Shown here in pieces: positions 8,247 to 8,462 of a stretch of 9,416 bases of DNA (the stretch's first letter is position 1; each line of letters starts with the position of its first letter). The stretch is from an uncultured Bacilli bacterium (GTDB lineage Bacteria > Bacillota_I > Bacilli_A > RF39 > UBA660), in assembly GCA_944363745.1 (NCBI GenBank), contig CALVVD010000032.1:1-9416 (forward strand), read 5' to 3'. The position numbers were made by a program, and so were the translations under genes. The notes below the pieces were generated by a model, which was not told the DNA's origin, did no database searches, and saw nothing but the letters and a program-made list of their open reading frames with translations.

Positions 8247-8462
8247 ATGTTAAAATTAGACATTCAAATGTTTGCAGTTCCTTTTAGAAAAGTATCAAAA
8301 ACTAGAAAGAGAATGCGTAGAAGTCATAATGCACTTGAAGTACCTGGTATGGTTAAATGTCCAAACTGTGGCGAAATGATTAAAGCACATCGTGTTTGTC
8401 CTAAGTGTGGAAGTTATAAAGGTAAAACAGTTGTAGATATGACTGAAAAAGAAGAGGCTTAG
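8247..8462 (+). CDS. rpmF: Large-subunit ribosomal protein bL32 with Prp-type N-terminal extension
   Basis: This is a 71-residue basic protein. Residues 10-60 are a standard L32: AVPFRKVSKTRKRMRRSH, then VPGMVKCPNCGEM and AHRVCPKCGSYKGK. The four cysteines 38, 41, 51 and 54 form the zinc ribbon, so this is the zinc-binding form. It is part of the 50S subunit near the peptidyl-tRNA region. Usual L32 is about 57-60 residues and starts MAVPFR; here MLKLDIQMF precedes the Ala. MLKLDIQMFA strongly resembles the MLKLNLQFFA-type leader of Firmicutes L27 that the protease Prp cuts after the Ala; a cut there would leave a mature protein starting VPFRK. The tail TVVDMTEKEEA is slightly longer and more acidic than usual. 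It is last in its operon, five bases after DUF177, with a strong ribosome site. Confidence 0.97.
   Translation: MLKLDIQMFAVPFRKVSKTRKRMRRSHNALEVPGMVKCPNCGEMIKAHRVCPKCGSYKGKTVVDMTEKEEA

Follow-up and report, generated by a model that had tools for sequence, protein, structure and literature searches.

A Prp-type leader on ribosomal protein L32 in uncultured Bacilli points to a second ribosomal substrate of the L27-processing protease

We analyzed a 9,416-nucleotide stretch of DNA from an uncultured Bacilli bacterium (hereafter, the window) and found that its rpmF gene encodes ribosomal protein L32 with nine additional N-terminal residues of the kind carried by long forms of L27. Judging from the sequence evidence, we consider it highly likely that L32 is synthesized in a precursor form bearing a nine-residue Prp leader and is cut by Prp between F9 and A10 to give mature AVPFRK; a single enzyme, Prp, would then probably finish two ribosome parts, L27 and L32. 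The leader-bearing L32 would thus represent a new class of host substrate for Prp and not a new system.

The rpmF open reading frame (ORF) lies on the forward strand of the window at positions 8247 to 8462, encodes 71 amino acids from an ATG at 8247, and begins MLKLDIQMFAVPFRKVSKTRKRMRR. Its N-terminus, MLKLDIQMFAVPFRKVSK, reads MLKLDIQMF/AVPFRKVSK (the slash marks the predicted cut here and below). Identity as L32 was well above the cut-off for both PF01783 (93.6 bits, cut-off 21.3; residues 10 to 64) and TIGR01031 (95.1 bits, cut-off 22.6; residues 10 to 63). Because both matches start at residue 10, residues 1 to 9 are extra. The start itself is fixed at 8247 by the Shine-Dalgarno sequence, which ends 7 nucleotides before the ATG (Table 1), as the original prediction had it. 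The usual arrangement is for rpmF to follow yceD; the ORF upstream of rpmF in the window matches PF02620 only below its cut-off, and its stop codon (8240 to 8242) falls between the Shine-Dalgarno sequence and the rpmF start. Elsewhere in the window, the ORF at 7273 to 7773 has a sub-threshold match to an HD domain (21.3 bits, cut-off 22), and the 240-residue ORF at 8533 to 9255, downstream of rpmF, has no Pfam or NCBIfam match at E 0.001, with hydrophobic stretches visible by eye.

Table 1. Features of the rpmF region of the window, and sets of related sequences named in the text.
Feature	Position	Strand	Basis or remark
YceD-like protein, upstream neighbor of rpmF	7778..8242	+	PF02620, 31.4 bits, just under cut-off of 33.2
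Shine-Dalgarno sequence AGAAGGAG	8232..8239	+	7 nt 5' of rpmF ATG, direct reading
Prp-type leader MLKLDIQMF (P9 to P1), rpmF codons 1 to 9	8247..8273	+	start, conservation, selection
Predicted cut between F9 (8271-8273) and A10 (8274-8276)	8271..8276	+	F/A cleavage per available parts of PMC5744158 and PMC9405229; inferred for L32
Mature L32, AVPFRKVSK..., zinc-ribbon ribosomal protein	8274..8459	+	PF01783, TIGR01031; stop 8460-8462
L32 leader peptide with predicted Prp site			MLKLDIQMFAVPFRK
Alternative L32 N-termini			AVPFRK (cut) versus MLKLDIQMFAVPFR or LKLDIQMFAVPFR (leader retained)
Other family genera with L32 leader			g3, g5, g7, g10, g11, g14, g18
Prps with D/E at the Asp62-aligned position, L27 with P2 Arg			G041, G042, G056, G059, G109, G111, G115, G120, G122, G123, G126, G129, G141
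Phage tape measure matches	viral contigs		L380, L383, L386, L397 (PHROGs)
Grouped with tape measure set by N-termini only	viral contigs		L381, L384, L388, L391, L392, L394
Phage proteins with same kind of leader	viral contigs		major tail L379, L385; scaffold L387; major head L382, L395

A mis-called start would offer a trivial account of the extension: translation would begin at Met8 (MFAVPFRK), or the leader would be an untranslated leftover. The window does have a Met at codon 8, and of the 136 distinct rpmF genes with a leader, 61 have an ATG at P2. However, a Shine-Dalgarno sequence precedes the internal ATG neither in the window nor in any of these 61 genes, whereas one precedes an upstream ATG in 132/136 (all sources, window included), and the remaining 75 genes keep the leader without a Met at P2. 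We therefore rejected a start at Met8, and purifying selection on the leader codons (below) makes a mis-called start of either form scarcely credible.

The motif [LIMVF][DNESKT][ILVM]Q.F[AS] occurs once in the six frames of the window, at rpmF. For the narrower motif [LFIMV][DNE][ILVM]Q.F[AS], the chance of occurrence at a given place is about 1.4 × 10−6 (residue frequencies of seven other window ORFs); this value, together with conservation in relatives, rules out a chance motif. An artefact of a single assembly is likewise ruled out, given that the leader is present on at least 114 rpmF loci. Within the genus of the window, pN/pS was 0.118 for leader codons P6 to P1' and 0.128 for the first 50 codons of mature L32 (the window together with 34 genus members recovered with the family model; 35 sequences, 31 distinct). 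We relied on this set because, in the set of all leader genes, some loci had been selected with a pattern in which Q, F, and A are fixed. Across the 35 sequences, the seven codons from P6 to P1' occur in 12 DNA versions that encode 4 peptides, the pattern of drifting codons under a conserved leader that had been proposed as a check. The L32 leader is under purifying selection like that on mature L32 in the genus. Conservation in relatives and selection together support the original prediction that this L32 carries an L27-type Prp leader, MLKLDIQMFA.

Ordinary L32 (MAVPFR) yields AVPFRK once its Met is removed. Prp cleavage falls between F and A (PMC9405229 and PMC5744158, in their available parts), and therefore the predicted L32 product is the ordinary AVPFRK and not one residue less. 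On this point the original prediction was wrong: it had placed the cut after FA, leaving a VPFRK one residue short. The corrected product strengthens the case for a Prp leader on L32. The sequence LDIQMF/A also has the recognition features given in the available text of PMC9405229, with Gln at P3, Phe at P1 (usual), and a small residue, Ala, at P1'. That source further calls P1' and P2' small, a descriptive trend and no proven requirement, with His common at P2' in L27; the Val at P2' of L32 is not small in this sense. The residues after Ala in the substrates of its Tables 1 and 2 are Ser, His, Thr, Asp, and similar, and no substrate of those two tables has Val at P2' as L32 does, let alone followed by Pro at P3'.

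To map the distribution of the leader, we searched 100 relatives of the nearest genome, G001, for L32, L27, and Prp, and read N-termini from the loci. In the window's genus, L32 was found in 34 of 35 genomes and carried the leader in all 34. Among 26 other genera of the family (one genome each, all with L32), 7 carried the leader (Table 1), and the other 19 began with MAVPFR or used a different start codon at that position. None of the 35 genomes of other families of the class with L32 read (39 sampled) had it. The L32 leader is therefore constant in the window's genus and patchy within the family. The 41 leader genomes of this family-model search all have the Q, with no variant or decayed L32 leader left over, and every L32 in the set has either the leader ending QxFA (41 genomes) or the usual Met start (19 others in the family). 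The original prediction had named relatives with MAVPFR starts and a decayed upstream region as evidence against itself; the MAVPFR starts exist in other genera, but the genus is constant and decayed leaders were absent from the sequences read. Mapped onto a 112-genome tree (L21, Prp, mature L27, and mature L32), presence or absence of the leader requires 11 changes, at least 4 of which fall on supported branches.

From a further sample of 395 genomes of the class, 372 L32 matches were obtained, and among 50 read, 13 of 30 from the family and 0 of 20 from other families had the leader; these 50 were best-scoring or hand-picked, with six of the 30 overlapping the first set, and so do not estimate frequency. 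A pattern scan of contigs found at least 117 stretches, among these 114 rpmF genes with the leader and 3 chance matches; the sources (80 of the at least 117) were mostly uncultured Bacilli or "Tenericutes" metagenome-assembled genomes (MAGs), several from rumen or intestine. The window's L32 protein is identical in L236 (a "Candidatus Onthousia faecipullorum" MAG) and in several genus relatives. In a protein search, 119 of the best 120 of 1021 L32 relatives, a list biased toward the query, had a leader-like N-terminus, and in two of these 119, E or H replaces the P3 Gln. Three leader-bearing L32 proteins (P0071, P0095, and P0103) have lost VPFRK and kept the leader, with a mature N-terminus of AVAQHK or AVSDHR. 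A scan of 274 loci, mostly around rpmF, rpmA, or prp, for other ORFs starting with a leader found none besides L32 and L27.

If Prp processes L32, prp and a leader-bearing L27 should accompany the L32 leader. The 91 leader genomes in which L32 was read comprise the 41 from the family search and 50 chosen from the 114 pattern-scan loci to favor other genera and unusual P2 letters (L27 match in 46 of the 50). L27 carried a leader in 80/80 of those with readable L27, and Prp was read in 79 of these 80 (the exception is G142). The order rplU-prp-rpmA on one strand held in 77/77 testable genomes, so that the prp which the original prediction had placed between rplU and rpmA was found there in the window's relatives. 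It had also suggested comparing the L27 leader with MLKLDIQMFA, and in G001, L27 reads LKLDIQLF/AHKK against MLKLDIQMF/AVPF in L32. L27 was not read in the remaining 11 of the 91 genomes. Six are genus members with neither a prp nor an rpmA match (G006, G007, G019, G020, G021, and G033; completeness 72, 86, 95, 92, 94, and 86%, respectively), as one missing contig would cause; the other five comprise four with no L27 match and one with a partial match. Among genomes with a leaderless L32, 34 of the 37 with L27 found have the L27 leader. Of the three without one, G049 is truncated by a contig end, and G086 and G097 lack the L27 leader, any prp match, and a leader on L32. The His/Cys motif was present in 116 of 117 Prps read, from leader genomes or not; the exception, that of G001, is cut by a contig end, with prp in two pieces on two contigs.

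N-terminal extensions are common on ribosomal proteins, and L32 might simply retain this one for a ribosomal role of its own, unrelated to Prp. We regard this as quite improbable, since the extension is a Prp recognition motif, its P2 residue goes with that of L27 (below), and the L32 leader was found only where L27, if readable, also has one (80/80). In addition, the N-terminal region of L32 contacts bL20 in the 50S subunit (PMC4881015, available part), which would seem to leave little room for it.

We then compared the two leaders in the 80 paired genomes (35 from the family search and 45 from the chosen 50). P3 Q, P1 F, and P1' A are present in both leaders throughout, F and A (and, for pattern-scan loci, Q) having been used to recognize the L32 leader. 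All nine genomes with Arg at P2 of L32, eight of which belong to the chosen 50, also have Arg at P2 of L27, compared to 1 of the 71 others (G122). P2 Arg status agreed between L27 and L32 in 79/80 genomes (permutation mean 63.2; 0/5000 as high) and P4 in 70/80 (permutation mean 53.1; 0/5000 as high), although these permutations ignore relatedness. P5 showed no covariation beyond chance in the same genomes (414/5000 permutations). On the 112-genome tree, P2 Arg needs 2 changes (origins) in L32 and 4 in L27. For P2 there are two independent pairs, of which an average of 1.9 agreed in direction; with so few pairs, sign tests cannot reach 0.05, and with only two independent origins of Arg in L32 the covariation at P2 is no more than suggestive. 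Of five independent pairs for P4, L27 went the same way in 1.3, showed no difference in 3.7, and went the opposite way in none; thus, P4 agreement mostly reflects shared ancestry. Met occupied P2 in 36/80 L32 leaders versus 0/80 L27 leaders; the L32 Met may be left over from the ancestral start codon.

Wherever L27 has Arg at P2 (13/13 genomes), one column of Prp holds D or E (12 and 1, respectively; Table 1); the other 104 Prps have D in 3 cases and E in 19. In a HMMER alignment of a relative's Prp to 4PEO and 7KLD, with residues counted by hand, this column falls on SaPrp Asp62, and Asp62 to Gly65 are restructured upon substrate binding (PMC9405229, available part). When Prp is omitted from the tree, Arg at P2 of L27 takes 6 changes and D in the Prp column 10; three pairs on supported branches went the same way in 2.8 for D and 1.9 for D/E, none went the opposite way, and no sign test was significant. 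The Asp62-aligned position is a candidate specificity residue for P2 and no more than a lead, because the column was picked after inspecting the whole alignment and SaPrp itself pairs an Asp at this position with a P2 Phe.

The same leader was found on phage proteins. A scan of viral contigs for ATG-x-K-[LF]-[DN]-I-Q-[hydrophobic]-F-A returned 19 stretches, some of them near-duplicates, each beginning an open frame of 112 to 912 residues. Seven of the 19 start exactly MLKLDIQMFA, where the scan pattern itself fixed most letters. Ten were scanned with PHROGs and matched tape measure (4), major tail (2), major head (2), and head scaffold (1) proteins, with no match for 1. N-termini of the four tape measure matches and of the six proteins grouped with them (Table 1) read MLKLDIQMFA, MMKLDIQMFA, or MLKLNIQLFA, a leader of the L32/L27 type, and L390 has the same N-terminus as scaffold L387. 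These matches fit a remark in the available text of PMC5744158 that the motif occurs on non-homologous phage proteins including a tail protein. A literature search for a tape measure protein with Prp and L27 found nothing.

Phage 80alpha also bears on whether the leader must be cut at all. According to the available text of PMC5744158, 80alpha remains viable with a capsid protein that cannot be cleaved, which shows that a leader can function uncut, and the scaffold needs its leader but not its cleavage. PMC9405229, in its available part, discusses Prp as an L27 chaperone on account of growth defects from pre-cleaved L27. By analogy, Prp might bind the L32 leader as a chaperone or delivery tag, with cutting absent, unnecessary, or incidental, the last form overlapping our preferred explanation. 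We consider such a tag unlikely, given that a cut would yield exact mature L32 and that leaders in the family-model set are intact or absent, never decayed. Conservation of the P1' Ala is only partial evidence against it because ordinary mature L32 starts with the same Ala.

Known Prp substrates place a cleaved L32 in context. Long L27 of S. aureus (rpmA; MLKLNLQFF/ASKK) has nearly the same leader as L32 (P6 to P1', L-D-I-Q-M-F/A), and in both cases the predicted protease is the same and the product is a mature 50S protein starting with Ala. Unlike L27, the L32 carrier adjoins a yceD-like gene and not prp and shows a P2' Val, and its leader is patchily distributed within the family. The 80alpha capsid and scaffold and the phi13 major tail protein (PMC5744158, available part) resemble L32 in that Prp leaders sit on unrelated proteins of large assemblies; these phages use a host protease, however, whereas L32 is a host ribosomal protein conserved through the genus. 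The FlhB leader of B. subtilis and others (PMC9405229, Table 3) was likewise proposed as a second host substrate from its motif alone, but FlhB is a flagellar export protein with no part in the ribosome. In mitochondria, MrpL32 also loses an N-terminal extension to a protease before ribosome assembly (PMC5438985, available part); there, an unrelated m-AAA protease removes a long presequence at a site dictated by protein fold instead of a sequence motif, a convergent case. A literature search of mostly openly available papers, most judged from listings, found no description of an L32 Prp leader, in line with the original prediction, which knew of no Prp-cleaved L32. PMC9405229 names L32 once in its available text, as an exit tunnel protein. 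Two papers retrieved for bL32, bL27, and "Prp" (PMC11354259 and PMC5071890) were set aside, as their available text uses "PrP" for prion protein and "PRPs" for plastid ribosomal proteins.

In the processing that we favor, L32 would be synthesized with MLKLDIQMF in front of AVPFRK; Prp, encoded between rplU and rpmA, would bind LKLDIQMF as it does the L27 leader and cut at F9/A10, releasing ordinary mature L32. The cut would come before or during 50S assembly, where L32 contacts bL20, bL17, and uL22 (PMC4881015, available part). More speculatively, the cut may license L32 to enter assembly, in which case a single protease would serve L32 as well as L27. A broader joint reading, which we offer tentatively and hold to be rather doubtful as a whole, would make Prp a general licensing protease of large assemblies in the family: it would gate 50S entry of L32 and L27 as a two-substrate checkpoint, its P2 pocket (the SaPrp Asp62 position) would evolve with both leaders, the L32 leader would have been gained or lost repeatedly, and phages would equip their tape measure, tail, and head proteins with an identical MLKLDIQMFA and so gain access to this pathway.

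In S. aureus, prp and rpmA are both counted among the essential genes; Prp has been proposed as a target for antibiotics, and L27 is its demonstrated host substrate (PMC9405229, available part). If a second ribosomal protein were processed at this motif to give its ordinary mature N-terminus, the leader would be a portable signal for 50S proteins and no oddity of L27. That an unrelated protease matures L32 in mitochondria as well hints that the timing of L32 entry is worth controlling. The patchy L32 leader offers natural comparisons, since genera of one family exist with and without it while nearly all have a long L27, and asks what the leader buys.
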